NCBI GenBank assembly: GCA_001600455.1 | Contig: BCKC01000004.1 | Span: 248,001 to 312,000 of the forward strand | Source: Endocalyx cinctus | Lineage: Eukaryota > Ascomycota > Sordariomycetes > Amphisphaeriales > Apiosporaceae | DNA: 64,000 nucleotides | Reading direction: 5' to 3' | In this document: positions 13,181 to 41,160 of the stretch, piece after piece | Layout of the letters: the number at the start of each line of letters is the position of its first letter | Position numbering within the stretch: position 1 is the stretch's first letter | Position numbers and translations under genes: made by a program | The notes under the pieces: model-generated | The model's database searches: none | What the model saw: the letters and a program-made list of their open reading frames with translations, nothing else | Told to the model about the DNA's origin: nothing

Positions 13181-14294
13181 GTTAGAACAACGAAAGTTCA
13201 CGTGCTTCTAATTCATCAAGCTTTATCGTTAACACCGTATAAATATATAAAGCTCCTATATGAATCTTTACTAAGGAAAAGCTTTAATCAACACTTAAGC
13301 TGGCATGTTATGGACAAATCTTTTCATATATATCTTGGATTTGACCAATATTCCGAAGGTTGTCAAGATCAATTCGCATATGCAATTAAACAAACGCGCG
13401 AAGAGTTAGGTATACCTTTATCAAAGTACGTATATTTAATCTTTGCACTAAATAATATATAACTGATTAAATACCTCGCAACTAGGCAGTAGAGACTGTT
13501 CAATAATATTGGATACTCCGTACGAAGATGTATATTGGCTCGTTTGAATTGCCGGGTTACAAGATGAACGGAACTTTACGCTAATACTATCATGTAATTA
13601 GCGAATAACAACTTCAACTACATCCGGTTTATACATCTAAGAAGAGATGAGGAATGCAGCTACTGTATTCCGACTCTATTCATATTACCGATCCGTGAGG
13701 ATAATCACAATTGCAGTGTCTTGCGTTAAAGTGTAACTCCATGCATACTTCTTGATCCGGTTTTTAGAAGCTGTAGGAATTTGAATCCTATATAATGCTG
13801 ATATTAATACCGGTTCATAGGGTTTAGCAGATTCGCGAATATAGACAAAAATTAAATAGTNAGCCNTAGGGTTGGATAGATAATGGCCCACTACAAGCTA
13901 TGAAATCCGCTGGAAAACCTGCGGAAACTCCTATCTGGCCAAGAAAAAGGTCTTCTCATGATCAGTCAGGATACTCTATCTTGCTAGGTTTAATTTTGAG
14001 GGGCCCCTTTGAGAGGCCTCCTTCACGGTAATGTTTTTTATGAAATCCATGATCTGTATTACTTACGTGTCGCCCCGCTCAAAATTAGCTGATCCTTTTA
14101 TAGTTACCCCTATTCATCTTCACGTTTTTGTCTTCTACGTTCTATTATAACCGTGACCAACTAAAGGGATCCCACATCTCAGGTTATGCCACGTCCTCAT
14201 TTCTTGGTCTGCGTCACATTTCTGTGTCTATCTGAGGTTCAGAAGTTATAAATTTCGAACATAAAAGTGTAATCATACGATGAGGTACATAGTA
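13181..14294 (+). repeat. Inverted repeat copy 1 (1.1 kb, partner at 49884-50993)
   Basis: This stretch is the reverse complement of 49884-50993 with only isolated differences seen by eye (for example GGATTTGAC against GGCTTTGAC). The left junction is at GTTAGAACAACG (13181 pairs with 50993); the right end is near the sequence GATGAGGTAC. Two undetermined bases (13861 and 13866) fall at the same places as two in the partner (50308, 50313). No terminal inverted repeats or transposase are visible, so it looks like a segmental duplicate rather than a classical transposon. It carries the last codons of the NLR gene (13202-13462) plus about 830 bp of NLR downstream flank. Confidence 0.85.
13202..13462 (+). 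pseudogene. Orphan 3' end of an NLR gene
   Basis: 86 codons identical in translation to the C-terminal tail of the NLR at 50712-54710 (for example NQHLSWHVMDKSFHIYLGF and TREELGIPLSKY). There is no ATG at the start, and homology to the NLR gene stops at 13181, only 21 bp upstream of the frame, so the NACHT and HEAT parts are absent. This is a duplicated gene tail without its body. Confidence 0.85.
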
Positions 14295-14498
14295 GGAGCT
14301 AAGGAACCTACCATCCCACAAGGCACGTTCTAACCACGACGGCCACATCTGTCTAATATTCCCGAGCTGCTTTCTCTCTATTGCCTGACGGTATTTTATG
14401 AAGCGGGTGTTTACGTAGATGGGGTGAGTTCCGAGACTTGGGAAACCAGTCATCAGCATCTGTGTAGGAAGGGTTGGAGCACATAGGTTTTGATTCAT
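14214..14498 (-). pseudogene. Unassigned ORF, weakly TEA-domain-like, truncated at the repeat boundary
   Basis: From ATG 14498 the frame reads 94 codons. The segment KYRQAIERKQLGNIRQMWPS followed by WLERALWDG resembles the first part of a TEA/ATTS DNA-binding domain (AbaA/Tec1 type: Tyr-Arg, basic linker, W-P-x-x-L-E-x-A). The resemblance is short and rests on pattern only. Right after this motif the frame crosses into inverted repeat copy 1 near 14294, which would cut off the rest of the domain. It may instead be an unrelated exon; a GTAGGT donor-like site follows ALWDG. Confidence 0.3.
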
Positions 14499-15720: not shown

Positions 15721-16389
15721 TCAAAGGTGTGTTAGCCGCATACTGGGACACTTTTTGGCGTTATGTACGGTGAAGATTTCGCTCATGGCGGTGGCCAATA
15801 TAGGCGTCTTCTCTCCTGGATTCGAACGCGGATTCAGGACGAGCAAATTAAATTTCAGCCGATACGAGCCCGGGGCCTGGCATGAAAGGTCCGGAAAGGA
15901 GAAGAAGTAACTCTCCTTGTCATCCTCGTCCTTGTCGACGAAGGGAGAAGACACTGTTGTACCTATGAGCCGCTTCTGCTGGCCGTAGTTCGAGCAGTCT
16001 TGATCACCCCGCTCATTCCAAAGGGTGCAGTGTATCACCATGTGATTATGTCGTATCTGATTAGGAATTTCGTCTTCCGACGCTTGGGGTTCCGTGATTT
16101 TCACGATTGGCAGCAGGCGGACCCGTTCGTCGTAGTCGTCCGCTCGAGCGGCCCGTGGTTGCTGGCAGACCCGAATATTATGTTTAACTGCCGTCGAAGT
16201 AGCGGTAACGAGACTCATCGAAGCGGGCGAGAACGAAGATAGGGTGGATGAAGAAGAGAATAGACCCAGTGTTGCCGACCTGGCATCGTCGTTTGGCAGC
16301 TCGAACCGTTTTGGATACGAGGAGCGATGGGCAGGTGGGGAAGTCGTTGAGACCGGATACGGGGTTTGACCATACATGGAATCCGCCAT
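15721..16389 (-). CDS. Velvet-domain regulator, truncated
   Basis: From ATG 16389 (MADSMYGQTPYPVSTT) the frame encodes 222 residues. After a Ser-rich N-terminus comes the velvet domain: IRVCQQPRAARADDYDERVR then PIVKI, MVIHCTLWNERGDQD, VSSPFVDKDEDDKESYFFSF, DLSCQAPGSYRLKFNLLVL and IFTVHNAKKCPSM. Velvet proteins (VeA, VelB, VosA, VelC) are NF-kappaB-like fungal transcription factors coordinating development and secondary metabolism; the F-P-D-L-S-C and Y-R-L-K-F order fits the VosA/VelC side. Oddities: the usual spacer between ERxR and P-P-P-I-V-K is several residues short, and the protein stops just after the last beta-strand (MRLTHL, stop), where relatives continue for tens of residues with a basic tail. 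It may be a divergent paralogue or a gene decaying at its 3' end. Confidence 0.7.
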   Translation of the reverse strand: MADSMYGQTPYPVSTTSPPAHRSSYPKRFELPNDDARSATLGLFSSSSTLSSFSPASMSLVTATSTAVKHNIRVCQQPRAARADDYDERVRLLPIVKITEPQASEDEIPNQIRHNHMVIHCTLWNERGDQDCSNYGQQKRLIGTTVSSPFVDKDEDDKESYFFSFPDLSCQAPGSYRLKFNLLVLNPRSNPGEKTPILATAMSEIFTVHNAKKCPSMRLTHL

Positions 16390-19300
16390 GGATGTGTGAT
16401 AGGAACTTAACGGTAGTAAACGATATGAAGATAAGATTGCGTGTAAAAGGATAAGAAAATTGAGAGAGCGATGGGTCTGCATATAGACTCAGACTTGATG
16501 TGATAACGCACCAAAGCCAACAATTACTGCAATGGGGACTAAACCATTTACAGGTGTAATCGGGGAGCTTTAGGTGATTATAGTGGCGAAGAACGTCTAT
16601 TCATCGATAACCGCCAAAGCGATTATGGACCAAAGGGGCGAATCATGGCGGCATGCAAGAGCCTACATGAATTTTTGGTGGAAAATCATGCATCTACCGG
16701 TCAGAGGCATACGAAACACAGCGTAGCGAGATAAACGGATTAATGTCCCGGACTATATCCGTAGGGATAACCGGCGCTGCCAACCGAGGATAGCCGCGGA
16801 TGAAAGTGCGGCCGAAACTGAGTAAAAATCAAACATCAAAGCCTCTTCCTATTTCTCTGCTTATTATGACTTTGCGTTTATTTCTTACTTGTACAACATA
16901 CAATATTAGATTACCTCGTTTGGATTTTTCCCTGCTTATATATTTTTTATATTACCCGTTCTGCTTATATTTAATAGAGACCATGAATCAAGACGCGCAC
17001 TTCTGCGCCGTTCAACACCATTCAAGCTGCTGCATCTCGATATACCAAGGCAACAATCTCACGGTTTGTGGGTCGGTAACGCAACAAAAAGGCATATGTT
17101 GCAAACCCGCCCTCGTTGCTTGTCAGATCGTCGCCAACAATTCCGTCCGTAGGTACCTGTTCGCTCGATCGCCGTGATGAGACACCTGTCGCTGATATGA
17201 TCGCGTCTTGCTACTGCTTCGCCGTGCCATTCGATTATCACTACCCCATATGTAAATTCCAGGACTGTAAACCTTTCCCCGCGATCAAGTCCTATTGTCC
17301 TAGCGTTCAGCCGATGCGATGCAGCCCGAGCTCCATCTATCCCCAACCTTATAGTGGCATGTGTGGCTACCATGTCATAGAACAGACGCGTGCTTTTTTC
17401 CACGAGCAAGGGCTGCAGCGATGGCAAGCCTCGAAGTTGTATCAACACATAAACCCCAACGACGGGAAGCCCATAGCAAGAGGGATGATCGGGAACTAGA
17501 GTAACTGGGCTGTAGCGAGGATTGGGGGATGTCCTGATGCGCTTTACCTGGACAACAAAGACATTAAGAAAAACTTGAGCGATATGCCCATCGATAGCGA
17601 TACCGACGAAGCGGAAAAGCCTTCCACGAATTGATTAACGTTCCCGAGGCGAGAGTGCGGGTCATGCTGGCGATATGGCAATTCGTAAAACAGGATCTAT
17701 TTCCAACGAGGCTCCCACTAGCCCCGAGAGCATTTACATATATGTCAAGGATGAAAAAGACCCCCTCGTTCTCCCCGGAATCTTCAACGGGATCCTAAAA
17801 ACCTTCAGACCTAAACCTATCATACCTTATTATATACCAGCATCCACCCTAACCCCCCCACGATCACCTGGTCAACGTTACTTTCGATCGACGGAACAGG
17901 TATGTCTTCCCTTGGCTGTTCCTTTGGCTTGCCTTTCCTCTTGCTTGAACTCGAAGGGTCTGCAGTAGGTGGTAATGTCGAGGAAAGGATAAAGGTGCTT
18001 GATCTTACTATATGTTTAGTAGTTTGCGCTGATTATTTCGAAAATAAATTACTTTCTTTCCAAATGATGCGGCCTGAATATGTACAGTTGAATTGACATG
18101 CTACTTATATCTACTTTCTTCCTACTCGTAGCAGGGGCATTGTACTCCCACCAGACCCTCCTCGAAAATACTATGCAGCTTAGGAGGAGTAACGGACGTC
18201 CTAGCTCTAGTACGTCGTAATAGCATATGATACCACCAGAGAGAACTGTTCTCTGTAGCATTCCTCCTACCAACTGTAAACTCTTGCCGGGCACGAATAA
18301 TAGGAATGGCCGCCTTGCCCCTATCGTTACGTAAACCTTGGCTGTCCTGGTCGTATAATCTTGCAGACCTTTCTGACATACCGTGCGTTTCGCCATTTTA
18401 TCGGCAGGATCGCGATCACACAGAGGGTTTTTTGCACTCCGGGTTAGTACTCCAGAAGTCGCGACCCGGTCAAATATTCCGCTCAAGCATGCGGATTATG
18501 TTTTCATCGCATACATCCTTCAACCGAAAAAAATCTATCACATATTAACAGAGATTATTTCTCCAACTCCAGAGAGCAAACATGAAAGCAGCCCAGGAAA
18601 ACCAATTGTCAAATTAGGCAATAAGGAAACGAACACCAAGGACCAAAATATACGCTTTACTGTCGCGTTACCAGACCCAAGCTTGACCGGCCTTCAATCA
18701 TAGCGTTAAACGCGATTGGCCAAGTTTCAGAACCCGCTGGCAAAGACTCCAGGAGCGAAATTCCTAGACTAGGTCACTAATGTCAACCCAAGCACCTATT
18801 TAGATTCGTTTTGTCCTAGGCATGATGTGATAATCTATGCTCACCCTTCGAAGCTTCGCAACAGGGGTACTATTCCCGTAAGAACAATGGAGAAGGTTCA
18901 CCGGACCAGAGTGATGGCAAGGTTCGATCGTAGCTGTAGATGACATCGATACCCAATTCGAAGCCCTCTACACTGCCGTGGAAGGGGCATATTCCAAACC
19001 GAAGGCTACATCAGGACATCCATTTAGGGGAGTCATTCCACCGGATTATTTTCTGATATGTAATCGGTTCTGATTTTGGCGCAAAGCATCCTGTTCGTAA
19101 AGTATGGCAATAGATAAGGACTTGAAGGAATTGTCCTTTTAGGACTAGTAATTTACATTAGGGGCTACGTTGGGGCATGGTACACAGCCTGCACGAAAAA
19201 AGAAACGGCAAAAAATGAGTTATAACTAATGAAATTACAGTGTTCCTTCCCGGAATGGGTTCGGCCGGTGCGACGTATTCCCGAGAGCCTGGAACATATC

Positions 19301-19629
19301 AGTGCCGTCGGCATTGCCGACCATTTTTACCAGATGTCTTTTGTCTTGGTACTTAAGGTAGTACAGATTCGTTGTAGAAATGTACGTACATTTCCCCGCT
19401 TCCCTCTTCGTCCTCATTGGTATCGGCTTAGGCAATCTACATCTCTGTACGCATCCGAGCCATATCGACGGGTAGAGACCCGAGAGGAGACGCTCAGCGG
19501 CCTTTTTTCTTCTTCTTACTCTTCATTTTCTTTCATGTTGAATCTTATTTTACTCTAGTCACCTTTCATTCAGCTCAGACGTAACGTAGTTATTAGCACC
19601 ACGCGTGATCCCGTCAAGTAACTCTCATC
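16390..19629. other. Long region with unresolved coding-like pieces
   Basis: No gene can be assembled. Open pieces include plus 17116-17499 (128 codons with spaced Cys residues, beginning MLVRSSPTIPSVG), a short in-frame stretch near 17527-17631 containing ALYLDNKDIKKNLSD and ended by TGA, plus 17675-17968 (ATG, Pro-rich), and plus 18383-18703 (no ATG). Frame changes and stops separate them. They could be remnants of one or more decayed genes. A minus-strand frame over 17059-17448 overlaps the first piece and one of the two must be spurious. Confidence 0.35.
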
Positions 19630-22600
19630 ATGGATGGGCTGGAAGTCTTCATCCCTAATTTGCCAATTAACATAACCGATCACGGGTTAAAACGCGAATT
19701 GACACCTTTTATCACTAATGACCTTCGCATAATCGACTGGACCTGCAATAAGCTTCGCCGAAACTCCGGAGCCATTACCTTCCTTAATCGGCGCGACGGA
19801 GAAAACTTTTTAAGAAAATATGGAGAGCACCGGCAAACCGAAGCCCGACTCAAAATCTTGAACACAAATATATATTGCAGGAAGAGCAATAAAAACCCTC
19901 ACCCCTACTTGCTGAAGACCCTGATGAAGGATGCCCACGATCGAAACCATCCGGATAAAGAAATAGAGGACGTCCAGGAAGACGCTGCTGTTGTTTTTGA
20001 AACCCTTAGCACTTCCTTCGGCCATTATGAATATCTAGAGGGTAATCTTTCCTACGGAAGAGATATCGAATGGGCCTCAAGTGGAAACGCGAAATTTATC
20101 AAGCAGACATTGATCGTCACCTTCGCTCACTCTTACTCCCACGATTTAGCTATACGCGTAGAGATTCCATATAGAATTATCAATGAGATCGTGATATCCG
20201 CTTATACCCCTTCATTGGTGCTAACTCTTTGGGAATCTCCACGGATCTTTGAAATGCTAGCTACTAGCGACACCAAAACTCGCATTGGCGAGATCCCACA
20301 CCCTCAGGTGAAACACAGCGACATCCTGGGTCAATCGCTTGTATATTGTATCAACGTCTCGTCATCCAACTTCGCCCCTAAGGTTCACCGACTAAAATCG
20401 AAAAATTCTCTCATATTTTTTTACTACGATTTTCCAAGCTATTCCTCTCGGACACACTCCATGACAGACCAGATGGTGGCGTTCCGGCAGGTTCTGGGAG
20501 AATGCTCCAAGGTGGTGCCATTTGATGTTCTGTTCCAATTCCAGGCTCTTGTTCAAAATGGATATCTCTTGCCATCAACTGTCGGGGAGATGCTTAGGAC
20601 TCTCAGAAGGACTTTGTGCAGATCCTTGATTTCGGCGCAGGCAGTCAAAAAGCTCTTCTCACAAATTCCCTTTCCAGGGCCTAACATAGAGGCGAAACAA
20701 TTCTTCATTGATGATCTTTTCGCCACTATAAAAGATAACGAGAAGGAACTGGAAGCTGGAATCAAAAAGGAGCTCATGTCAGAGAGAGCTAAGCAAAATA
20801 TGGTAATGGTTTACAAAGTTCAAGTTACGCCGACTCGAATTTTGCTGACAGGACCCGAGCCTGAGGCGATGAACCGCATCCTCCGCAAGTTTCCGAATCA
20901 CGTCGGCTACTTTGCTCGGGTGCAATTTTGCGATGAAGATGGACAGGATATCTACTTAAACGTCAGGGTATCCCTCAAAGAAGCTTACCAAAGATTCAAG
21001 AAAGTCCTCTTGCATGGGGTTTCAATCTCGGGTCGAGACTATAAGTTCTTGGGATTCTCTCATTCCTCTCTAAGAGCGCATGCCGTTTGGTTTATGGCCG
21101 AATTCACCGATGGTCACGGTCAATTTCACAACTACAAGTCTGTTATCGGAGCCCTTGGAAAGTTCTCAGCGATCTATTCACCTGCCAGATGTGCAGCCCG
21201 AATAGGCCAAGCGTTTTCAGAAACCCCGCTTTCTGTCAACTTGAAAGATCTTAGAGTCACGGTGATAAATATTCCCGACGTTAAGTCTAAAGACAAGCAG
21301 AGGGTCTTCAGCGATGGTGTTGGCACGATTTCCAGAGACCTTGTTGAAGCGATCAATTTGCAGATGCCTCCAAAGAAAGCCCCGCCTACCTGCTTCCAAA
21401 TCCGCTGGGCAGGTGCCAAAGGAATGTTGTCGCTGGATCCGACCTTAAAAGGAATGATCATGTGCATTCGACCAGAGAGTATGGTCAAGTTTGAAAGCCT
21501 AGATACTCAAAACCTGGACATTTGCGACGTGGCGAATAAGCCTATCCCCTTGGTTCTGAATCGACAAATGATCATGATTTTGGAAGATATGGGAGTTCCA
21601 GACGAATGGCTCTTTAACGTTCAAAACCAAGAGCTTAATCGGTTGAAATTAATCACTGGCAGCGTTGAGAATACGGTGACCTTCCTGAAAAGACAAAAAA
21701 TTGCGGATCAGATCAGATTCCCACAGTTTATCCATTGTCTACACCGGCTCGGATTCAACTATAGAAAGGACAGGTTTCTCTGCTCTATAGTTGAGGCAAT
21801 CGTACTTCGAGAAGTCCGTTTACTTAAGCACAAGGCAAGAATTCCGATTAAACATGGTGTCACCTTGTTTGGGGTAATGGATGAGTTTGAGTTTCTGGAG
21901 AAAGATGAGATCTACATCACATTCGAGAAAACTCATGGAACTCAATCAGTTTCCCTTCACGAAAAACAGGTATTGATAACCAGGTCACCGGCTCTGCACC
22001 CTGGGGATATTCAGATTAGGAGAGCTGTAGAGCCTCCTATCGGACACCCTCTTCGAGAGTTATCAAATTGCGTAGTATTCAGTCAAAAAGGCCAGAGAGA
22101 CCTCCCGAGTCAGCTCAGCGGTGGAGATCTTGATGGTGATATCTACAACGTTATTTGGGACCCCGAAGCGGTTGAGAACTGCCCGAGAAAATTTGCGCCC
22201 GCAGATTACCCCCGTGTACCACCCCTTAATATTGGTAGAGAAGTGACGCGGGAAGACATGACTAACTTTTTCGTTGACTTTATGGAGATGGATCAGTAAG
22301 TGTTGTTTTCGGGATGATATCTCCTTGTGTTGTTTTCTCGAGACTCCCCTGATTAGTTACTAACTTGTTTTATGGCAGATTAGGGGTGATTGCCGTGAAA
22401 CATATGATACTTTCAGATATACATGCTGCAGGAACTGTCCACCCAGAATGCATGCGTCTTGCCCACCTACACTCTACCGGCGTAGACTACTCTAAAACTG
22501 GCATTGCCATCGAGCGCAATGATTTGAAGAACTTAACAACAACGAGATACCGCCCGGACTTGTAGGTCTCTATTTATAAATCAGTGGAAGCGTGCTAATA

Positions 22601-23479: not shown

Positions 23480-26251
23480 TTTGGGAAGTGTGTTAAATTT
23501 GATTAGGGAGACTACAAGTAGTTAAGGGAAGGTTGACAACTATCCAAGATATTCAGGGAAACTGGTAGCTCCTATTAGGACTTTATGATCTTACGAGATA
23601 CGTTTATATTATATGGACTGGAGACATAGCTTAGGTAATTCGACGAAGAGCCATTTTCAATTGATGTGATCTATTTGTCAAGATCTTTACACACAAGTTG
23701 ATTTCACCCGGGTAGCGGAGCCGAAAGGGTAACTATCGTTAATCTACAAGTGTATTTTTTTTAAAACAAAGCCTATTTACCCGGAGCCCTTACACAATCT
23801 GTCTCCGGCTTATGTCATTTCTCCTGTGATATTACATTACGAATTCTCGTATTGGATGCCAAGATGGTTGAGGATGGCGTGGTAGGGAGACTCAAACGAC
23901 TTCGAGCCAGTACGGCTTCGGAGGCTGTCCCGGCCGGTGAGACATGAACCCGAACTCAAATACCGAGGCACCACCGCCAACCTACTCCTCGCCAAGCCAC
24001 TCAGCCGAACGGGGGAGATGATTCGATTTGCAGTTCTAAAAGCTGCAATATGGAGGATTTCAAACTTGTACGGGGTAATAATAAAAGCTGACCTGTCCCG
24101 TGGCAATGTAAATAAGAGTAAATGTTAGCTTGCGAAATGGGAACGAGCCCGGTGTCCACTCCCTTCCCAACCGAACTATCTCTTTATAAGCACTTCGGCG
24201 AGAATGAGGGTAAACATTGTTTTCGCGCCTTGGTCCGGGCAGTTCTAAGGCCGGCGAGGCCATATGCTCTCCAGGGTAAATGTCGGGGGGGATGGTGAAC
24301 TTGTACCGGTAAACGTTCTCTGCAATTGCGCACATTATCTTATCTTGGGATATTGCCTAGTTTCTCATATATAGTGTAATTTATCGTGTGGATATTATTA
24401 TCGAGGTTGGTAACGTAGAAGTATTCGGTGTCAAAGCTGTTTGATTACGATAACGTTGATGGAAGTACGGCAAACTCGTCGAACTATAAATCGTCGGCCT
24501 AAATCCCCCTGCAATATCTACTGATATGTTGCTCAAGAGCACGTTCCCTAGTCGTACCAGTACTCTTCTGGGTTAGTAGGAATTATTGCTGCAATTTTAG
24601 CACCAAAGCCCTCGAAGTAGCTGTCGTACTGGTGGTAGCGAATATATGTTGGCGGAAGCAAACAATCTCGAGGGCTCGAGTACCCAATTTGTGGTGAGGA
24701 GGGTCAAATAGTACCTCAGGCGGATGAGGTCGGATTTAGGTAGAGGCAAAACAAAAGTGGAAGGGCGCATTTCCACTTTATGCTGCTTAGCGGTCACGTT
24801 CGAACCCGAACTATTATCTGTCCGGTTCTTAGGTCTTCCGGGCCGAACGAGCAGTGAAAGGATAGCACTCTCCAGTCGGACAGTAGCACAGGATCTTGAC
24901 TACGAACTGTTCTTGGAGCGTCGTCGTCATGAGAAGAAACCTCACGTGTCGCCAAAGCTGAGGAATATCCGTCCCTATTGTTGCGGCTGGCGGCACTTTA
25001 TTAGCAAAACGAGACTCGGTGCCGGCTCGGGGGAACGTCAAGTCCGGAAAGGTGACAACGCGGGATGTTGCGGACCGCGAATCATACTGCAGTCCCCGTC
25101 GCAGGATTGGTAAAGAACGGCGAGAATATCGTGAGGTAGGTTAGAGGTTTGTGACGAAGCTTTAATTCAGCGATCGGCAGGATGGGCGATACGTGATCGA
25201 TGATACTAAGGGTAGTTGGTCTATCGTGTTTGGTTCGTCTAGCTCTCGCAGAGTTATTACAGTGTTGGAGGTGGTCAGGCCAGGTAAAGTATCGAGGAGT
25301 GATCTAGATATATAGTAGATGGTGTACTTACAGCTTTTAGTTCATAGACGTTTAGAAAATGCTCGATATTTTTTTTTAGATGTATTGCCTATTTGTGTCT
25401 GCAAGAATCCAGGGGAAATCTAGCTCTCGAGTCTTATTATTTGAGTAAAATGTAAGGAATAAGGCGCGGGAGAAATGGGAAATCAACTGATTGAACGTTA
25501 TCGCCATTTGGACGCGGATAGAGCCTTTTTACAGCGGGTATTTAAATCTTAGAGCATACCCACCGCAAGGGCCAATAGTATAATCAATACAGAGCACCGG
25601 GTTACTGATACCGCTCTTGCTGTTCCGCAGATATAGTGCGTCGCGGGGCTTCTCGTCGGTATGATTTGATGATGACTGGGCGCTGTGGTGCCAGCTGTCC
25701 GAACGTCTCGGTGGCTTGTGGAAGGAATGATATAATATGGGACCCTCGAGTTCGATAGAGTCGTCTATTGCTGGAACAGCTTCAAGATTGGCTAGTTTAT
25801 CAAAGAGCCCCTTTAGATATATTGCAACAGTTGTTTATTTTGAAAATAAAACATATTGTTTTATTTTTCTCTCTCGAGAATAAAACCGTAAAAAAAAAAA
25901 AAAAAGATATATGTACCTTTTATATAGAGTTTATATATAAAAGGTACTTGGTTAAATTGGTGGTGAGTACTAACTTATAGTTGGTAAGTTCTGCGAACTT
26001 GAGATAACTGGGGCGTAGCACGGTTAGTAGCCTGGATTAGGAAACTGCGTAAATAGTATACAGGTTATACCTTTAAAGGAATATTTGTTAAGCTTGAAAA
26101 TTCAATTAAACGAGTTACTATGAATTGAGAGTAGTATGCTTCTATGCCGGCGTCCGCTGTCAGCTGACAACCTCAGTATATGTACCAATGTTCAAAAAGC
26201 TTCTATCTACTGCTCCTCCCCATTCCGACTACATATATTTTAAACCTAAGG
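23480..26251. other. Region of unresolved, probably decayed sequence
   Basis: 2.8 kb between RdRP and the JmjC-SET gene. Minus-strand pieces look partly coding: 24060-24335 (ATG 24335; KFTIPPDIYPGEHMASPALE), 24829-25041 and 24597-24797, but they do not join through convincing splice sites and carry no motif I recognise. Plus 25768-25980 begins without ATG and includes a poly-A run at 25890-25904. The last 250 bp should hold the JmjC-SET promoter. Confidence 0.35.
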
Positions 26252-29200
26252 ATGGCCGATCATTTACAAGTAACTAGGACTCGGGAACAGTTCCAGCATC
26301 TTCACGATAAACACACGAGAACGTTTAAAACCCTTCAAGCTTCAATCCCCTCCAACCTCCACCCTGAACTCGATTATTTTTGGTTTAACCTTTGGCAAGA
26401 GTTTGATCAACTCTTAACAGCAAGTGCGACTGAGAGGAACGTTCCGGCTGACGCTAACAATACTACGGCCGATAACTGGTCTGGGGACCAGAATACCGTG
26501 GTCCAGCAACAATATTTACGACAAGATCTTATTGCCTTAAACTCCCCTCCACAGTCTAGTAATGAGACGACTACGAGCGACGAATCCCCACTTACATCTT
26601 TGGATAATAGCGTTGCTACATCCCCAGATTCTAATATAAGCGATGCCGACATAGCGTCTAATTCTTCAAACGCCGATGAACCTAAGCCAGATGCTCTCCG
26701 ACGAGACAGCTCACAACAAGAACCCGAAACGAACAACCACGCGACCGCCGCTCCACCACTGCCACCCACGCCGACGAATCATCTAATAAACACAAGTGAA
26801 TCAACCACCGAGATAAGCAGCTTAACAACGTCAAACCCGTCTACGGTTTTAACGAAACGGGTTGAAGAGAGCGACGTCGCATATCGATGGGAAGATGCCG
26901 GGCCTGATGGAAAGGTTTTAGTTATCCTACCCACGGCGGAGCAGCTCGCCGACCTACAAAAAGAAGGACGTGGTCCTGCTATTATTATCCGCGCTGCGGA
27001 CTCTATCGGAGCAATAGAACAAGGTGTGTTCAAGATAGTAGTTCCCGAGCAAGCACGAGTGAGAATCCCTCAACAAACGCTTCGTTCAGCAATTGGACGG
27101 GGTTGTAATCACGAACCGAGATGCGCACTACAAGAATGTAGCGTATATACGCCTATATCTTTAGCAAAAGGATTTTGGAGACTAGATCCGATCAAGGCGC
27201 GCAGAGCTTTCTGTCGGCCCCCCGGCCGGAATTACGAGCTGGTCAAAGATCTGGAGCCTCTACTTCTAGACCATAACGGTAAAAATCTCGATGGTGTGCA
27301 ATATCTCACCGATGTCCCCGCCGGAACCCAGGAACAACGAGCCACTGCTGGTCTCCCCGTTTCTAGCGTTATTAAGACCCTTGCTGGGGATCAGTTAAGC
27401 AAAACGAGATATAAACTTGACGGGGTTCATAACCCGACCAAGTTCGAAGGGCCTCCAGGGGCGCCTTTTTGCTGGCATATGGAGAACTGCAAGATGTGGG
27501 CGTTTAACTATTGCATTCTAGGAGAAAGAGTGTGGAATGTCATACCACCTAGCTACTCGACCAAAGCTGAGGCGGTTTTTCAGACATTATCCTTATCGAA
27601 AGAAGCATCTCAATCGAAGTGCGCCGCCTTTATGATGCACGATGCGGTTTTCGGTGTCAGTGGCTTTGAAGGGAAAGGAATACCGATAAGATCTTTCCGA
27701 CAGTCTGAAGGCGAAATCGTCGTAACTTTCCCAGAATCATACCATTCCGGACATGCCGTCACATATTCCATCGTCGATGCGAAGAATTATATCGATAATA
27801 AATGGATTATTGATCAGTCCAAGTGTTGTAACCAAGACTGCCCGGGGAATCCTATGATGTACGAGCATATCCGCCCTCGAAAACGAGGCGAGGCGCAAAT
27901 AAGCGAAGACGAAACAGAAAAAACAGGCGAGGAGCCGGATGAGGACGAGGGTAAGAATAAGAATAGGACGGACGCATGTGTAGCTATGTCGCGGAAAGGA
28001 GGCAAGCTTCAAGGTACACGACCAGGAAAAAAGCCAAAGCTCCAGCCATCGTCGGCTAGCCTTAGGCTAGAACGGGTAATAAAGCAAATACTAAATACGG
28101 ACAAGCTCTGCAGCGTACCTAGATATTCTGAATCTAAACCCCCTAGCCCCGGTATCCTTCTATTAGCATTAGCACTTCGCAGCCGAGAAGCAATCCAGCA
28201 ATTCTGTTCCCTCGTCGCAAGCAGACGAGTCCCGGACAACATGTTTCGACCGCCATTTGACGATGATCAGGTCAAGCATATCGCTAATTGGATTGATAAT
28301 GCCGATAAAAGTTCGTTATATGCAAAGTTTATAACCCGCTATGGCCAGTATCAACTCGCGGCAGAACTAGACATTAGTAAGGAGAACTTCAAAAGGGTGG
28401 ATTCGGGAAAACGGCAACAGACCATGGCAGCGCTAGGATGGCCAAAGACTAAATTCGAGTACCACCTCACACAGGGTCGAAAATGGAGAAAGGTTTGCGG
28501 CAAATTCGACGGCATCCTAAGTTTTATTACCCTATCAAAATGCGATAAATTCGATATCACGCCACATCAATACTTGGACATGAACCCCCAAGAACTTGAG
28601 ACGTTTCACCTCTTACTCAGGGATGAGTATACGGAATCCATTTGCGAAGCCGGCCACGCTTTTCAGCAATCTCTCAGAGGCTCAGATATTGGGTTTGGAT
28701 GGGAAATCAATAGTATCCCTGACTTAACTAGACGACCTGAGCATGAACTGTTCTTGCACTTGGCTCCTTGCAAACCGATCACGGATAATTTTTATGATCC
28801 GAACGAATATCCGGGTTGGCCAAGACCCTCCGGCTGGCCAGAGAGTTGGCCCTGGCCGGCGAACCCAACCACGCACAACGTTACTGGGTGTGATATTTGC
28901 GGAGAGACCCAGTGCCAGTGTTTTTATACAATTCCAAAACCCATGCTTCGTATTAAACGGTACGACCAAAAGGGTCTAGGCCTTCAAGCGGTTGGGAAAC
29001 ATCATGGAGAAATAACCTATACTAAAGGCACTATAATCGGATGGCTCCTCGGTAAAATCGTCCCTGCTGGTACATTTCACACCGATAAGGCTATAGACTT
29101 CACTAGGCCTGATATCGATGGAGAGCCTGTGGTGTGTCAATTAGACTGTGGCGTTTCCAGTAACTACTTCCGGCTCTTGAATCATGATTGCAAACCGACG

Positions 29201-29365
29201 GCTCATTTCGTGGAGTCTCGGATTTCAGGTCGATATTTAATGGTAGTCAAAGCAGCAGAGAATGTACATGATGGTACAGAGCTCACGGTTAGCTATGGCC
29301 GGAATCATTTCGGGAAGGACTGCCTTTGCTATACGTGCCGGATGAAAACTCGAGGAAATAGTTGA
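26252..29365 (+). CDS. JmjC-SET fusion protein (putative histone demethylase-like plus methyltransferase-like)
   Basis: One intronless frame; I choose ATG 26252 (MADHLQVTRTREQFQ, 1037 aa) because it has A at -3 and G at +4; an ATG at 26180 would add 24 hydrophobic residues. Residues 1-200 are helical then Ser/Thr/Pro-rich. At about 400-510 lies a JmjC core: FCWHMENCKMWAFNY (iron ligands His and Glu in H-x-E), the GERVWNVIPP strand, and GEIVVTFPESYHSGHAVTYS with the distal His. A Cys cluster (CCNQDCPGNP), a basic acidic-flanked segment and a helical middle follow. At about 877 CDICGETQCQC precedes a SET domain: KGLGLQAV, RLLNHDCKPTAHF (N-H-x-C), GTELTVSYG and post-SET CLCYTC. JmjC proteins remove and SET proteins add lysine methyl groups, so both in one chain is unusual. 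Catalytic residues look intact. A deleted copy is at 40707-41160. Confidence 0.85.
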   Translation: MADHLQVTRTREQFQHLHDKHTRTFKTLQASIPSNLHPELDYFWFNLWQEFDQLLTASATERNVPADANNTTADNWSGDQNTVVQQQYLRQDLIALNSPPQSSNETTTSDESPLTSLDNSVATSPDSNISDADIASNSSNADEPKPDALRRDSSQQEPETNNHATAAPPLPPTPTNHLINTSESTTEISSLTTSNPSTVLTKRVEESDVAYRWEDAGPDGKVLVILPTAEQLADLQKEGRGPAIIIRAADSIGAIEQGVFKIVVPEQARVRIPQQTLRSAIGRGCNHEPRCALQECSVYTPISLAKGFWRLDPIKARRAFCRPPGRNYELVKDLEPLLLDHNGKNLDGVQYLTDVPAGTQEQRATAGLPVSSVIKTLAGDQLSKTRYKLDGVHNPTKFEGPPGAPFCWHMENCKMWAFNYCILGERVWNVIPPSYSTKAEAVFQTLSLSKEASQSKCAAFMMHDAVFGVSGFEGKGIPIRSFRQSEGEIVVTFPESYHSGHAVTYSIVDAKNYIDNKWIIDQSKCCNQDCPGNPMMYEHIRPRKRGEAQISEDETEKTGEEPDEDEGKNKNRTDACVAMSRKGGKLQGTRPGKKPKLQPSSASLRLERVIKQILNTDKLCSVPRYSESKPPSPGILLLALALRSREAIQQFCSLVASRRVPDNMFRPPFDDDQVKHIANWIDNADKSSLYAKFITRYGQYQLAAELDISKENFKRVDSGKRQQTMAALGWPKTKFEYHLTQGRKWRKVCGKFDGILSFITLSKCDKFDITPHQYLDMNPQELETFHLLLRDEYTESICEAGHAFQQSLRGSDIGFGWEINSIPDLTRRPEHELFLHLAPCKPITDNFYDPNEYPGWPRPSGWPESWPWPANPTTHNVTGCDICGETQCQCFYTIPKPMLRIKRYDQKGLGLQAVGKHHGEITYTKGTIIGWLLGKIVPAGTFHTDKAIDFTRPDIDGEPVVCQLDCGVSSNYFRLLNHDCKPTAHFVESRISGRYLMVVKAAENVHDGTELTVSYGRNHFGKDCLCYTCRMKTRGNS

Positions 29366-29441
29366 TATGTTTAAAATGCTTGCGGTAAGATATATATACC
29401 TATATATACCGCACTTCGACCGTTTTTAAATCTAGATGTTG

Positions 29442-29496
29442 CAATGCACGGACCATATTAACCAGAGTAACTCTGGATAATATGGTCCGTGCGTTG
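29442..29496 (+). other. 26-bp hairpin in the 3' region of the JmjC-SET gene
   Basis: Starting 76 bp after the stop codon. Left arm 29442-29467 begins CAATGCACGGACCATATTA and right arm 29471-29496 ends TAATATGGTCCGTGCGTTG; they pair over 26 positions with one mismatch and one G.T pair around a TAA loop. As RNA it would be a very stable stem in the 3' UTR. The partial gene copy keeps the same left arm at 41106 and again a stem at its tip. It could be a transcript-end structure, a small-RNA precursor or the scar of a palindromic insertion. Confidence 0.8.
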
Positions 29497-29871
29497 ACTT
29501 GGTTTGAATTAATGCTGGAACTTGTAAAGTGAGTATCTGCCGATTTACGTCAAACATTACGTTGCGCTCTCGTTCTAAAAAGAGAAAAGACCTCTTTTCA
29601 TTGTCAGATAGAAAAGATAGAAAATGAAAAATCGGAAAACTAAGAAAAGAACTGCGGGAGTAAAACACAACATAATAATCGACCTTTATGATAATATTAT
29701 GTATATCTTGTACAGTTAACTTTTTTTGGTATGTTGCCTGGAAATGGGATGGCCAGGTAAGAAGACCCTTTTATGGTACCGTAGTTATGTAAATAGTCCA
29801 CTGGAATGTACTCAATCAAGACATGCCGCTATTACACACACAAGTTTATTACTCTTACGAATCTTTCAATA
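29497..29871. other. AT-rich spacer
   Basis: Spacer between the hairpin and the NLR fragment. No open frame with a motif is present. Nothing further is seen. Confidence 0.4.
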
Positions 29872-33418: not shown

Positions 33419-36400
33419 ATGAGTCAAGATAGTGCTGGAAGCCTGCGATTAGATCGTCTCAATCGATCCTTTAATGAAATTCTGAAAGGACGGGCCATTT
33501 CAACAGTACGCGACGCCCAAGTTTTTCTGGAAGCCGTGCGATCCCAGCCTTCTCCATCTACATGTCTTGAAAAGATACTAGCTCAAACACATGGGATAAC
33601 TGCAGTGCGTCATTGCATACGACTTCTGACTAGCAATATTTTCATATGCGAGCACGTTTTCCCATTTATCGTCTACATCACCCACCCTGATTCTCAAGCG
33701 ATATGCGATGGTCAGCTTTTGGAAGGGCTGATTCATGCAATTGTTCTACCGACTACTACTTGGAAGATAATTTTACGACTATACCTTAACAACGAATTTG
33801 TTGACACGGACACTAGTACGGAAGCATTTGCCTGTCTTTGTTTTCATATTGTCAGCAATTCAAACGCAGAGCTATCTGAAGCAACTAACGATGTTGCTGC
33901 CGCTCTGGAGAGCCGACCGTTCGTTACTCATTCTATTCACAAGATTCGGGAATATGGATACAGGATCCAGAAAGTTCTGCAAATGAAGTGCTCGGCAGAA
34001 GTCACTATGGGTATCGATACGCCCGAGGGCAGACACGACAACGACTTCGCCGATTTTCGAAAGATATCTGTTTATCCAACGGCAGATGAGCTCTCCTCGA
34101 CAATGCGGCCTTTTTACCGCCGCGCCGACGAGGTTATGAGCTCTGATCCTACGGTGAGAGCTAACGTTCATGTTGACAACCAGTTTAGGCTTCTGCGCGA
34201 AGACATGCTTGCCGAGCTTCGTGAAGACCTCAAAGCAGCCACCAAACAGAAGAAAGGGAGAAGATCCTCCATGATATTGGATAATCTTATCCCGGTCGAC
34301 ATATTCACTGGTGACAAAGCGAAAGGAAGTCCTTGTGCTTTACTTTTACAGGTGGGATCAGGTCTCCCGAACCATCGAAACCTCCCAATTGATCGTCGAA
34401 GAGCGTTCTGGAAGGACAATCCACAATATCTCCGCCACCAGTCATTTGGTGCAATCTGTCATGGAGATGAAGTATGCGGGTTTGCTTTTGTGCACCGTGA
34501 CATCGATGAACTAGCTAAGGACATCCCAGTTGTCGGTTTGCAATTCACCAGCGACGATGTATTCTCTAATGTCATCTCTGCATTTCATCAATACCAAAAT
34601 CTTCGCTTCGTAATAGTTGACACCCCGATATTTGCATATGAACCTGTTCTACAGCGACTGAAGGGGATCACTGAGTTGCCACTTGAGAGCCACCTTCTGA
34701 ATTTGCCTAATGAAGAGGGTGTTGAGAATGGCAGATTCCAGCCAAGTGAATATGTATCGGATTGGATTAAGCGAAATGGCACCTCTCAAGGTGGGATCGG
34801 TATCACAGTGAACACTCAAGCATATACTCTCGACGACGCACAGCATGCGGCTCTCATATCTACTCTCCAAAGCCCCCTTTCTGTGATACAGGGACCTCCC
34901 GGTCAGTTATAATCCTCAACCCCTTATCTATAACTTTATCTTACTTCTCGTACAGGAACCGGAAAGTCATTTGTTGGTGCATTAGCAGCCAAATTACTCC
35001 TCGACGATCCCTCGACGCGCATACTGGTACTAGCATACACCAACCATGCACTAGATCAGTTTCTGGAGGATATCATGAAGATGGGTATATCTTCAACATT
35101 GATGACGCGCCTGGGATCGAAGTATACCGATGCTACTTCATCTTTGCTTTTTGAAAAAGGATTCCGCGTTGTCGAATATCGTCGGACACCGGAGGCAAAT
35201 ATAAGACTCTTTCATCTTAAGGAGGAGCTCAACAATACACGAGTAGAACTTTCCGAAGTTTTTGACAAGATAAACTCTTCTTTAACCTATCCTGATTTGC
35301 TCGCATATCTCGAATTTGCTGAGGATACCTACGAACAGGATTGTTGGGATGCTTTCCAGATACCTACAACTGATGACGGGTTCACATTTGCTGGAAAGAA
35401 AGGTATCGAGATGAAGAAAGATTACCTGATTGAGAGATGGCTACAGGATAAAGGCCCTGGCTCATTGAGTCATCATATTTCTAAAGATTATGCTGATATT
35501 TGGAAACTACCCAGAAATCAGAAGAATGAGTTGGAGAAGAAATGGGCAGAGGCCATACGGCGAGAACAAATCGAGCGTCTTGGGACTCTTGCTAGTCTTT
35601 TTAACGAGACAGAGCGCGAGATTGAAACGCTTATCAACGAGGCCAAATGCAATTTCATCCGGACCAAACGTCTTGTGGGATGCACGACAACGGCTGCGGC
35701 AAAATACTCGGCCTTGATCAAAGCTGCAGGACTAACTTGCGTTCTTGTTGAAGAAGCAGGAGAGATTCTTGAAGCGCATATTCTAGCAGCACTCGGTCCA
35801 TCGACCAAGCAGACGATCTTAATAGGGGATCATAAGCAACTTCGACCTAAGTGCAAGAACTACGAGCTCTCCGTCGAAAAAGGTGATGGCTATGATCTCA
35901 ATAGGTCGCTATTTGAAAGGCTCATTCTACAGGGGCACGAATATATAACTCTCTCGAAGCAGCATCGTATGGCACCAGAGATTTCCCAGCTTGTCCGTGC
36001 TGCAACGTACCCTAATCTCCAGGATGGGGAGAAAACTTTCGGCCGAAAATTAATAAAAGGGATCCCAGCCAGAGTAGCGTTCGTCAATCATGAGCATGCC
36101 GAGGTTGATTTCGCAGGCATTCGAGAACTCGGCGACGCAGCTGCCACTGCGAGCAAGCAGAATCTGTTCGAGGCTTCGATGATTTTGAAGATTGTAAAAT
36201 ACATGGGACAACAAGGATACGGAACGGATGATATTGTCGTCTTGACGCCATATCTTGGGCAATTGCGACTGTTGCAGGACATGCTAGCAAAAGACAATGA
36301 TCCACTATTGAACGACTTCGACTCATATGAGCTCAGACGTGCTGGGCTGCTCACCTCCGCCGCTGCTAAAGTTGATCGAGGACGCATCCGATTGTCCACA

Positions 36401-39400
36401 ATTGATAACTACCAGGGAGAAGAGCGTGATATCGTGATCGCGTCACTAACGCGGAGCAATAAGAGAGGCGATATTGGCTTTATGAAAGCTCCAGAACGCT
36501 TGAACGTTCTAATATCTAGAGCGCGCAATTGTCTCATCATGATTGGCAACATGGATACGTTTATGAACTCCAAGCAGGGTAAAGAAACTTGGATTCCTTT
36601 CTTCACTCGCATGAAAGAGTACCAGTATCTACAAGATGGCTTCCGAGTAAAATGTGAGCAACATCCCGAACGTACAGCCATACTCACCAAACCCGAAGAA
36701 TTCGATATGAACTGTCCAGATGGTGGTTGTTCTGAATCATGCGGTAGCAAGTTGGCTTGTGGTGTCCATACGTGTCAACGACAGTGCCATCGCATGATAG
36801 ATCATAGAAAAATACCGTGTCGGGAGCTTCTCATGAAAGAATGCAGTAAGCAACATAAATATCAAGTTCTATGCGGAGAGGAAAAGAACACAAGCTGTGA
36901 CACTTGTCGTGTAGAAGAGGAGAGAATTCGACAACGTGCCAAGAAACACCTCGATATCGAGAAAGCCCGTCTTGTCCGACAGGCGCAATATCAGAAGGAG
37001 TTAGAAGAAATTCAGGATGAGATAGCGCATCAAAAACGTCTACTAAAAGAGGATCAGACAATTGAGGACCAAAAGCGTACAATAGAACAGCAACGTCGAG
37101 ATCTCAACGCCCTAAAGGAAACAGTATCACGACAAAAGGCCATGAAGGAAGCACAAAATCTAGCGTCTCAGAGTACAGGAACATCCGCAACAGCTGCAAA
37201 GCCACAAAAACAAGAGAAAAATGATGAGATACAACCTGGAAGTGCAAGGGAAGAGTGGGAAAACCTCAAAAAGGATGAGCTCGCTCGAAGTGATGTCTTG
37301 GATCAGTTCATGGAGATGATTGGACTGGAGGACGTTAAAAGAGCGTTCCTCAACATCAAATCAAAGGTCGACACCACAACACGGCAAGGTATCTCCAGTA
37401 AGGACGAAAGATTTGGCTGTACCCTTCTTGGAAATCCTGGTACAGGTATATTATTTCCATACCATTTTGTTCCATCACGTATTATCAGTAATTAGCTAAT
37501 AACATATTCAGGCAAAACCACGGTCGCCCGCTTATACGCGAAGTTCCTCACCTCAATGGGCGTTATTGCTGGTTCATCCTTCAAAGAAACTACGGGCTCC
37601 AAACTTGCCAATATCGGAGTTCCTGGTACGGAGCAACTTGTGAACGACATGATTGAAGCAGGTGGTGGCGTGATATTCATCGATGAAGCTTATCAACTAT
37701 CTTCTGGTAACAGTCCTGGTGGCCGTGCTGTGCTCGACTACTTATTGGCTGAAGTTGAGAATCTCAAATCAGAGATTATTTTCATACTAGCAGGATACAA
37801 TAAGCAGATGGAGACATTCTTCGCGCATAATCCGGGGTTCCCAAGTCGGTTTCCGTACGAAATGAAATTCGAAGACTACACAGATGACGAACTTCTCCGC
37901 ATCCTGGGGTCCAAAATCAACACCAAGTACAAACACCGTATGAAAGTTGAACGCGGTCTGAGGGGTCTGTATTGCCGCATCGTGGCTCGAAGAGTTGGTC
38001 GAGGACGGGGCAAGGAAGGTTTCGGCAATGCTCGAGCTGTGGAAAACACTCTGAATCAAATCTCGCTGAGACAAACCGAACGGATTCGGCGGGAACGCCG
38101 AGGGGCGAGAAAGTCGGCCGAAAAGCCGGACGACCTCCTTTTCACTAAGGAAGATCTTATCGGACCCAAGCCATCAGGAGCGATTGAGAAGTCGACCGCT
38201 TGGAAAAAATTACAAGATCTAATTGGACTTACATCGGTTAAAGACTCAGTGGGCGTCCTTGTGGATAGCGTCAAGATAAACTATCAACGTGAGCTTGATG
38301 AGCAACCAATTATCGAGTATAACCTGAATAGAGTCTTCTTGGGGAATCCGGGTACTGGAAAGACCACTGTGGCCAAATTGTATGGTCAGATTCTCGTTGA
38401 TCTGGGTATGCTGTCTAATGGTGAAGTTGTCATCAAAAACCCATCTGACTTCGTGGGTAAGTATCACTCTCAATACATCTTGTTCGGCGTTTTTTCTGTT
38501 GTGGATAATCACAAAAAAAAAAAACCGCGACGAATAGTTTTATACCTACAAGAACACACTGACACATGGTTTTTAGGTGGACATCTAGGACAATCAGAGC
38601 AGCAGACTAAAGGGATTCTTGCTGCGACAGTGGGAAAAGTATTAGTCATCGATGAAGCTTACGGGTTATATGGAGGTAGCGCATCGCAAGGTGGGGGTGG
38701 CTCTTCCGACCCATATAAGACTGCTGTCGTGGATACCATCGTCGCCGAAGTCCAGAGTACCCCAGGTGAAGATCGTTGCGTCCTCCTCCTAGGATACAAG
38801 GATCAGATGGAAGAGATGTTTCAAAACGTGAATCCTGGACTTAGTCGACGTTTCCCGTTGGCTTCAGCGTTCGAGTTTGAAGATTTCGACAAGCCTGACC
38901 TAGCGCGTATTTTTGAGTTAAAGCTCAAACAGCAAAGCTTCCGCGCTACAGAGAAAGCAAAAGAAGTTGCTCAGGATATTCTTGAACGGGCTCGGAACCG
39001 TCCAAATTTCGGCAACGCGGGTGAGATTGACATCATTCTCGATGATGCCAAAGCGCGTCATCAGAAGCGCCAGAGAGCTGGTCGGCTGAAACGAGCCGCC
39101 GATATACTAGAAGCAGTTGATTTCGATGATAATTTTGACCGCCTTTCCAACGCCGAAACGAACATCGCCCAGTTGTTCAAAGATACTATTGGCTCTGAGC
39201 GCACTATTTCCACACTGCAGGGGTACCAAGAGGTCGTTCGAACTACGAAAATGGTGGGGCTTGATCCCAAGGAAAGAATCCCATTCAATTTCTTATTTCG
39301 TGGACCTCCTGGTACTGGCAAGACAACTACAGCACGGAAGATTGGTAAGGTGTTCTACGATCTAGGCTTTCTAGCTAGCGCAGAAGTCCTCGACTGCTCT

Positions 39401-40534
39401 GCGTCAGATCTAATAGGACAGTACGTCGGGCAAACAGGACCCAAAGTACGGCAGCTCTTCGACAAGGCGCTAGGTCGAGTTCTTCTGATTGATGAAGCTT
39501 ATCGATTGGCCGAGGGACACTTCGCAAAAGAGGCTTTAGACGAAATTGTTGATGCGGTCACCAAGGATAAATACAGAAAACGGCTCATAATAATTCTTGC
39601 AGGCTACGAGAACGATATTAATCGTCTATTGTCTGTCAATCCGGGTCTGACAAGCCGTTTTCCTGAGACAATTGACTTTCATGCTCTCTCACCCAGTAAC
39701 TGCCTTAACCTCTTGGCTAAGTTGTTGGGGAAACGAAAAACGGACTTGGAGGAGCAAGGAAAGAGCACGCTGGACATGTCCTGTTTTGAAAAGCAGAGTG
39801 CAGACTTTCTCACTTCTACTTTCCAATTATTTGGCAACTTGGCCGCTCAGCCACACTGGGCAAGCGCCCGAGATGTGGAGACGCTGGCGGAATCGATTTT
39901 TGGCAAAGCCTTGAAGCAGACGCCCCATTCCGATCATAGGTCCAAGACGATGATCTTCATCGTTCTTGAGGAGGTCGTTGCGGCCGAGCTAGATAAAATG
40001 CTGCAAGAGAGAATGGGACGCGCAAGCCAACTAACGCTGAAGCCTCGATTAATGGATCTTCAAGTTGCCCAACAAGGCCAACAACCTCCACGGACTTCAG
40101 CAAGCACGGGCCAGGCAAGCACCGAGAGCCAGCCAAACACCAATGAAGATTCCCCTCCAGAACGATTAAATCTGGAACTAGAGTCACCCAACGACCCGCC
40201 TAATTCGTCTCCCAAACTAGCTACTCGCGATGCGGGCGTCTCAGACGAAATCTGGGAGCAACTCCAAATCGACGCCGCGGCAGAAGCACAGCTAGAGCGA
40301 GCTTATCAAGCTAAGCTCAAAGCCAAGCGGGAAGCTATAGATGAAGCTATACGTGATCGTATTATAAGGGAGCTCATAGAAGAAGAAAAGCGTAGAAAGA
40401 AGGAAGCGCAAGAGCGAGCGAAGCTGGAGGCTCTAGGAAAATGCCCAGCGGGATTTCATTGGATTCGGCAGGAGGGGGGCTATCGGTGTGCCGGGGGATC
40501 GCATTTTGTTTCTGAAGGAGAGTTGATGGGTTAA
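33419..40534 (+). CDS. ZNFX1-like SF1 helicase fused to three CbbX/SpoVK-type AAA ATPase domains
   Basis: Model: exons 33419-34901, 34956-37445, 37512-38456 and 38577-40534 (2292 codons including stop, 2291 aa). Introns (54, 66, 120 nt) each split a Gly codon. Start at ATG 33419 (MSQDSAGSLRLDRLN). Residues 1-490 helical; SF1/UPF1-like helicase at about 490-1030: GPPGTGKS (I), VLVEEAGEI (II, E-E-A-G), LIGDHKQLRP (III), LSKQHRMAPEI (IV), STIDNYQGEERDIV (V), RLNVLISRARN (VI). A Cys/His-rich NFX1-like region spans about 1059-1146, a coiled coil about 1150-1230, then AAA domains with Walker A near 1320 (GNPGTGKTT), 1600 (LGNPGTGKTT) and 1880 (RGPPGTGKTT), each with a Walker B (FIDEAYQL, VIDEAYGL, LIDEAYRL). 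This matches fungal proteins labelled NFX1-type zinc finger/AAA. Probably RNA-protein remodelling; partners unknown. Looks intact. Confidence 0.9.
38457..38576 (+). other. Intron 3 of the helicase-AAA gene, open in frame
   Basis: Begins GTAAGT and ends TTTTTAG, 120 nt, a multiple of three with no stop in the reading frame. Removal gives DFVGGHLGQSEQQTKGIL, which matches the third AAA domain (DLIGQYVGQTGPKV) in the loop between Walker A and Walker B. Retention would insert 40 residues there. Confidence 0.75.
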
Positions 40535-40706: not shown

Positions 40707-41160
40707 AAATAATTAGCGAAGGCGAAATAGAAAAAACAGGTGAGGAGCCGGGCGAGGACGAGGGTAAGAATGAGAATAGGACGGACGCAAGTGTAGCTAT
40801 GTCGCGAAAAGAGGCCAAGGTTCAGACCCACGATCAAGAAAAAGGCCGAACCAGTAACTACTTCCGGCTCTTGAATTATGATTGCAAGCCGACAGCTCGT
40901 TTCGTGGAGTCTCGGATTTCGGGTCGATATTTAATCGTAGTTAAAGCATCAACAAATATATATGATGGCACAGAGGTCACGGTTAGTTATGGCCGGAATC
41001 ACTTTGGGAAGGACTGCCTTTGCTGCTCGTGCTGGGAGAAAGCTTGAGGAATTAATTGATACTTGCGTTAAGATATGTATACGTTTTAGATCTAGATATT
41101 ATAATGCACGGACCATACTAAGGAGAATATCTCCTGATCGTACGGAAATTCCTTGAACTT
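40707..41160 (+). pseudogene. Internally deleted copy of the JmjC-SET gene
   Basis: The first part matches 27897-28036 (EKTGEEPGEDEGKNENRTDA), then the copy jumps to sequence matching 29157 onward (TSNYFRLLNYDCKPTARFV, GTEVTVSYGRNHFGKDCLC), removing about 1.1 kb. It continues past the stop into the parental 3' flank including the hairpin arm at 41106. A frame from ATG 40799 could encode an 82-residue half-SET. The catalytic N-H-D-C is N-Y-D-C here (CAT to TAT), and many other differences are C/T or G/A. The N-terminal two thirds of the parent, including JmjC, are absent. Confidence 0.85.

Follow-up and report, generated by a model that had tools for sequence, protein, structure and literature searches.

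The 64,000-nucleotide window of the Endocalyx cinctus genome analysed here (contig BCKC01000004.1, positions 248,001 to 312,000) contains a real, intact gene that joins a JmjC and a SET domain in one chain. The reading that we favour, with modest confidence, is that its product is probably a nuclear chromatin modifier, composed of a KDM4-like JmjN/JmjC half, a helical domain with no known relative and a SET domain nearest to those of SUV4-20 and NSD2, which would replace one histone mark by another. The gene and its N-terminal part are as follows:

26252..29365, forward strand: the JmjC-SET gene, one open frame of 1037 residues plus stop, recognised by Pfam, its start backed by a paralogue.
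26252..26899, forward strand: N-terminal region, residues 1-216, largely Ser/Thr/Asn-rich in translation and partly common to the same paralogue.

The open frame extends from stop to stop over 26168-29365. Its earliest ATG lies at 26180, and the ATG at 26252 gives the product of 1037 residues with no intron and no interruption. The latter start is supported because a paralogue in the same genome, the C11 copy, matches from residue 1 (31% identity over residues 1-171). The original prediction, made from the letters alone, had placed both domains in a single intronless frame, and each half indeed scores above its Pfam cut-off: JmjC at residues 400-510 (E 1.2e-15, 58.3 bits against 24) and SET at residues 959-1016 (E 3.2e-8, 34.4 bits against 22.4), with no other Pfam domain in the product. 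Since a protein of Apiospora marii aligns across both domains (42% identity over 822 alignment columns), the joined frame is neither a product of chance nor a local sequencing accident. The N-terminal region is likely disordered, judging from its sequence; the structure model took in residues 201-1037.

Relatives were collected by searches of 5.8 billion proteins, which returned 1, 9 and 28 proteins and 31 distinct ones overall; the searches returning 1 and 28 scored only candidates sharing most words. An organism name is attached to 20 of the 31, all of them fungi, from the genera Apiospora, Podospora, Colletotrichum, Fusarium, Cylindrodendrum, Coniochaeta, Thyridium, Verticillium and Drechmeria. 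A taxonomy look-up of five relative species placed all five in the Sordariomycetes, where the remaining named relatives belong too. The same architecture recurs outside the window, with a JmjC domain accompanying the helical domain and SET in 21 of the 31 relatives, and the helical domain and SET standing alone in 10. A profile built from the JmjC rows recovers its own 21 rows at E <= 1e-51, by construction, and one of the ten JmjC-less rows at E 3.3. The helical domain and SET are found in every row, P0030 and other truncated models aside, and appear from the alignment to be the constant part of a patchy family. The JmjC-SET layout is already in databases, where relatives bear names such as 'SET domain, JmjC domain' or 'demethylase 4c-like'. 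Among viral contigs, a pattern search matched 81 stretches, and none codes for a relative.

A possible nuclear localisation signal lies between the two halves, and a K[KR]x[KR] motif is present, at variable location, in 27 of the 31 relatives:

28028..28039, forward strand: basic patch KKPK, residues 593-596, placed by its alignment position.

Demethylation of histone lysines by KDM4-type JmjC domains uses Fe(II) and 2-oxoglutarate. The corresponding half of the gene comprises:

26900..27895, forward strand: JmjN-like region and JmjC core of the KDM4/KDM5 group, residues 217-548, from the structure model.
27476..27484, forward strand: Fe(II) ligands H409 and E411 (H-x-E), from the 22 JmjC-bearing rows.
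27527..27529, forward strand: R426, equivalent to KDM4A Lys206 (2-oxoglutarate C5-carboxylate), from the 22-row alignment.
27743..27745, forward strand: distal Fe(II) ligand H498, conserved in all 22 rows.

The H-x-E and distal histidine picked out in advance are thus H409/E411 and H498. Among the JmjC-bearing rows, H409, N419 and H498 are each present in 22 of 22, and position 411 is always acidic (E in 19, D in 3). The modelled JmjN and JmjC fold is common to the window gene and the KDM4/JMJD2 proteins, whose Fe ligands His188, Glu190 and His276 are matched by H409, E411 and H498, and whose Tyr132 and Asn198 are matched by Tyr351, retained in the window gene according to the alignment, and Asn419. 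The zinc-site residues Cys234/His240 of KDM4 align with C457/H463; near the places of Cys306/Cys308 lie C525/C526/C530, with a different spacing. Unlike KDM4/JMJD2/RPH1, the window chain also carries SET. Out of four JmjC loci in the host genome, the KDM4-like locus is closest (129 bits) and the KDM5-like one reaches 106 bits, both labels having been assigned by us from the sequences of the loci; the comparison favours a predicted core of the KDM4 rather than the KDM5 kind. Structure matches of the whole model cover the JmjC part alone, and the absence of SET matches there is uninformative.

The departure from KDM4 lies at position 426. In the accessible part of PMC6010108, the 2-oxoglutarate C5 carboxylate is bonded in KDM4A by Lys206, Tyr132 and Asn198. 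The equivalent residue is Lys in all 21 JmjC-bearing relatives and Arg only in the window gene among the 22 rows, as well as in both copies of the gene on C13. Since Arg426 occupies the place of Lys206, we do not file the window gene as a KDM4 member. Moreover, with a Lys-to-Arg change at one of the three residues that contact the 2-oxoglutarate carboxylate, the predicted erasing function is less certain than the writing one, and in the window copy activity is more likely in the writer half. In this regard, SET could be the only enzyme, with JmjC acting as a methyl-lysine reader or a protein-binding module devoid of demethylase activity. The arginine fits this alternative, as do the dispensability of JmjC, absent from 10 of 31 relatives and from the C11 copy, and the non-demethylase roles reported for some JmjC proteins; however, the Fe ligands are retained together with Asn419 and Tyr351, arginine carries a positive charge as lysine does, and no JmjC-bearing relative has lost the lysine, so that we hold it to be possible but rather unlikely.

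The writer half and the domain preceding it comprise:

28049..28786, forward strand: helical domain between JmjC and SET, about residues 600-845, from a separate AlphaFold2 model.
28817..28867, forward strand: WPRPSGWPESWPWPANP motif, residues 856-872, from the 32-row alignment.
28889..28921, forward strand: pre-SET cysteines C880-x2-C-x4-C-x-C890, from the same alignment.
28940..29299, forward strand: SET domain, about residues 897-1016, with GLG, NHDC and ELTVSYG, from Pfam and PDB sequence matches to NSD2 and SUV420H1/H2.
29321..29338, forward strand: post-SET C-x-C-x2-C (C1024, C1026, C1029), from the 32-row alignment.

SET domains of the SUV4-20/NSD type methylate histone lysines with S-adenosylmethionine (AdoMet). 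The helical domain was modelled with a predicted local distance difference test (pLDDT) score of 88.8 and a predicted template modelling (pTM) score of 0.84, and it has no match in the PDB at E <= 0.001 (best E 1.5); the original prediction makes no mention of it. Within the WPRPSGWPESWPWPANP motif, P859, W862, W868 and P872 are unchanged in all 32 rows; the pre-SET residues C883, C888 and C890 occur in 32 of 32 and C880 in 31. Further along, G910 is kept in 32 rows, N977 and H978 in 29 each, C980 in 27, C1024 in 28, C1026 in 26 and C1029 in 20, gaps being scored as misses that perhaps stem partly from truncated gene models. The SET motifs of the original prediction were borne out, with NHDC starting at residue 977, ELTVSYG at 1010 and the post-SET CLCYTC at 1024, and the methyltransferase hallmarks NHxC, ELTxxY and post-SET cysteines are therefore all present in the window gene. 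The post-SET spacing, CxCx2C, differs from the CxCxxxxC given for a subset of SET proteins in the accessible part of PMC2474616.

The SET module appears nearest to SUV4-20 and NSD2, at weak resolution. Its PDB sequence matches to NSD2 (4.1e-7) and SUV420H2 (5.6e-7) tie, the latter covering only about the last 60 residues, and for relative P0006 SUV4-20 chains are the sole SET-structure matches at E <= 0.001. When the family profile was scored on 23 host SET loci (the genome gave 31 SET matches, of which at least two were left out), a SET9-like protein came closest, with 35.1 bits against 29.8 for the next. With SUV4-20/SET9 (KMT5) the window gene has in common NHDC and a CxCyTC-type ending, and the Leu/Ile found in the family two residues ahead of Gly934 compares with YLSG in the host SET9-like protein; the WPRP motif, in contrast, was not found in the host SET9-like frame. 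Catalysis may not extend to every member, because Phe stands at the catalytic Tyr in a nine-member JmjC-less clade (P0007, P0008, P0009, P0020, P0022-P0024, P0026 and P0028), whose proteins may be inactive or altered methyltransferases. The converse arrangement, in which JmjC is the only enzyme and SET a scaffold, is argued in the accessible part of PMC2474616 for JmjC-SET proteins with SET3-like arginine substitutions, and the Phe at the final aromatic of the SET motif in 9 of 32 rows would agree with it; we consider it improbable here, since the window gene retains GLG, NHDC, ELTVSY and the post-SET cysteines, and the helical domain and SET form the part that the rows have in common.

Trees of the two halves disagree. 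The JmjC tree (26 rows) separates 16 type-B rows with support 100/98 and joins 8 type-A rows with support 97/94, type A being the window gene, P0001, P0003, P0018, P0019, P0021 and both copies on C13; long branches (P0004) and an odd letter composition (C13a) were flagged by the program. On the tree of the helical domain and SET (34 rows, P0030 omitted as too short), carriers of types A and B are intermixed, with 4 changes. On these module data, a constraint that unites the 8 type-A rows to the exclusion of 15 type-B rows costs 69 log units (approximately unbiased test, p-AU 0.00024). With 20 rows, leaving out C11, P0021, P0025, P0029 and ten SET-only relatives, the cost is 87 units (p-AU 0.000073), and with 18 rows the linker and SET separately give p-AU 0.0029 and 0.000009. 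Conversely, the JmjC data reject each of three SET-tree groups (p-AU <= 7.2e-6), which were picked after viewing the SET tree but tested on other data. Since each data set strongly rejects the groupings of the other, the writer half seems to have stayed constant while its eraser partner was exchanged; either gene conversion or recombination among paralogues would account for this pattern. The JmjC-less rows need at least two changes on the module tree, one of them forced by starred branches, and among the 7 JmjC matches in the host's own genome the 3 belonging to the JmjC-SET family are all type A. We give little credence to wrong gene models or long-branch error as the source of the conflict. 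Several rows do come from unannotated short contigs and long branches are present (that of C11 in the module tree and that of P0004 in the JmjC tree), but the conflict outlasts the removal of C11, P0021, P0025 and P0029, appears in linker and SET separately and is found in reverse on the JmjC data.

The genome also holds broken versions of the gene. Of the two C13 copies, the first aligns over residues 39-1029 with 10 in-frame stops and the second over residues 361-1032 with 7; both keep one reading frame throughout the match, with gaps in whole codons and zero frame changes. The duplications are old, since protein identity to the window gene is only 57% and 68%. Pairwise ratios of nonsynonymous to synonymous substitution (dN/dS) are 0.36 and 0.39. 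The C11 copy, which also bears in-frame stops, passes from the N-terminal region directly to the helical domain and SET, without JmjC. Fragmentary copies occur near 177 kb of C4, near 365 kb of C13 and within the window:

40711..41133, forward strand: decayed fragment copy joining gene parts 27898-28038 (85% identical) and 29157-29473 (77%).

Fifteen of the 17 stops in the C13 copies fall at window-gene Gln (9), Trp (4) or CGA-Arg (2) codons and 2 at Lys codons, and therefore point to C-to-T or G-to-A change, a pattern like that of repeat-induced point mutation (RIP). The dinucleotide statistics are weakly in favour of such RIP-like decay: in one C13 copy C-to-T change reaches 0.32 at CpA compared with 0.21-0.30 at the remaining C dinucleotides, and in the second copy 0.24 compared with 0.16-0.18, a modest excess. 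Composite RIP indices are 0.18 and -0.01 for the C13 copies, 0.26 for C11 and -0.21 for the window gene. All C13 stops lie in the first part of the copies (residues 202-549 and 384-701), which holds 45 of the 81 and 29 of the 52 susceptible codons of the window gene; this placement hints at a spared SET half, was noticed afterwards and is not used as support.

Genome searches with the flanks 25200-26400 and 29366-29800 listed no other gene copies, and they miss diverged ones, since the in-window fragment, which shares the downstream flank as far as 29473, went unlisted. The first flank gave one further match, at C4:138597-138862 (83% to window 25506-25771). No pair of inverted arms better than about 79% frames the gene, and carriage as mobile-element cargo is not supported by these searches. 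The best nearby inverted repeat is a 3' flank hairpin at 29442-29496 (27-nt arms, 93% complementary); by eye, one of its arms recurs in the tail of the fragment copy (about 41100-41150) with a different inner stem, hinting at a conserved 3' structure at both places. We regard it as very doubtful that the gene itself is a repeat, selfish or in decay, and not a functional gene of the host, for although the two stop-ridden C13 copies, the stop-bearing C11 copy, the fragments on C4 and C13 and the flank carried along by the in-window fragment would suit such an origin, the window copy is stop-free across 1037 codons with its motifs intact, Pfam shows just JmjC and SET, and neither the flank searches, within their reach, nor the arm pairs reveal a repeat unit.

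Several of these observations weigh against a mark-replacing KDM4-like and SUV4-20/NSD2-like enzyme. A fold search ties KDM4 with KDM5; R426 replaces a conserved 2-oxoglutarate lysine; the SET class is weakly resolved, with NSD2 and SUV420H2 tied; and Phe takes the place of the catalytic Tyr in the SET-only clade. In addition, a single origin of both JmjC types apart from host KDM4 and KDM5 is supported at just 77/26, and the dN/dS values take in the branches of broken copies.

The original prediction knew of no characterised fungal protein with this layout. None was found in the one open-access library searched, nor was a functional test of any JmjC-SET protein, but the layout itself was described in 2008: the accessible part of PMC2474616 names a JmjC-SET family of filamentous ascomycetes, with members in N. 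crassa, A. fumigatus and M. grisea but none found in F. graminearum; the family is described with SET3-like arginine substitutions at the catalytic site, and its methyltransferase activity is doubted. The likeness, as described there, consists of JmjC and SET in one chain, filamentous ascomycete hosts and a varying copy number. Compared by description only, the window gene lacks the arginine mark and has an intact NHDC, of which N and H are kept in 29 of 32 rows, and for this reason it is not filed in the 2008 family. Among the relatives listed, no protein is named from Neurospora, Aspergillus or Magnaporthe. A 2022 survey, in its accessible part, sets aside JmjC-SET genes from a few species as not groupable (PMC9692433). 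A 2011 paper, likewise in part, reports a SET-JmjC protein of the diatom Phaeodactylum, with transcripts confirmed by polymerase chain reaction according to its authors (data not shown), and mentions the Neurospora one (PMC3145265); the diatom protein has both domains in one chain, as in the window gene, but in reversed order and in a distant lineage (PMC3145265). The bare fusion is thus already in print, and the modular family is the more interesting part.

The surroundings of the gene include an RNA-dependent RNA polymerase gene (19609-22299), a velvet-domain frame (15721-16488), long AAA helicase/ATPase frames (34934-40534) and a HET-domain frame (56173-58062). An inverted repeat of 1117 bp (13181-14297 and 49877-50993), 99.6% identical, overlaps the 3' end of a NACHT-HEAT gene and is a recent duplication, little mutated since; a second one of 0.36 kb (11351-11706 and 59309-59666) is 86% identical. 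The NACHT gene (50712-53381) carries in its HEAT part a 99-bp tandem array (50987-51545; 5.6 copies, 86% matches), and fungal NOD-like receptors (NLRs) with such tandem repeats are known. Rfam gave no match in the window at the gathering score.

Writers and erasers of histone methylation are normally separate proteins. In the mechanism that we propose, the SET half would methylate a histone lysine, most likely of the H4K20 or H3K36 class, while the JmjC half would remove or recognise methyl-lysine on the same nucleosome, with the net effect that one mark is replaced by another on one nucleosome. The eraser half would decide which chromatin is entered or which mark is removed, and the writer half the outcome. 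The self-contained switch of opposing activities put forward in the original prediction is possible, given that the family conserves most of the active-site residues in each half. More tentatively, the family may consist of single-chain 'mark converters', in which a constant writer is combined with KDM4-derived erasers swapped by recombination, so that the mark removed varies by lineage and the mark written stays constant; that the gene has been duplicated in the host genome, with RIP-like mutation, suggests evolution under genomic conflict. Our findings extend the JmjC-SET idea to a SET domain with an apparently intact catalytic site, and the family supplies ready-made comparison sets, with JmjC of type A, of type B or none. 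If the proposal is true, these fungi would offer a natural test of whether a single enzyme can carry out mark replacement.
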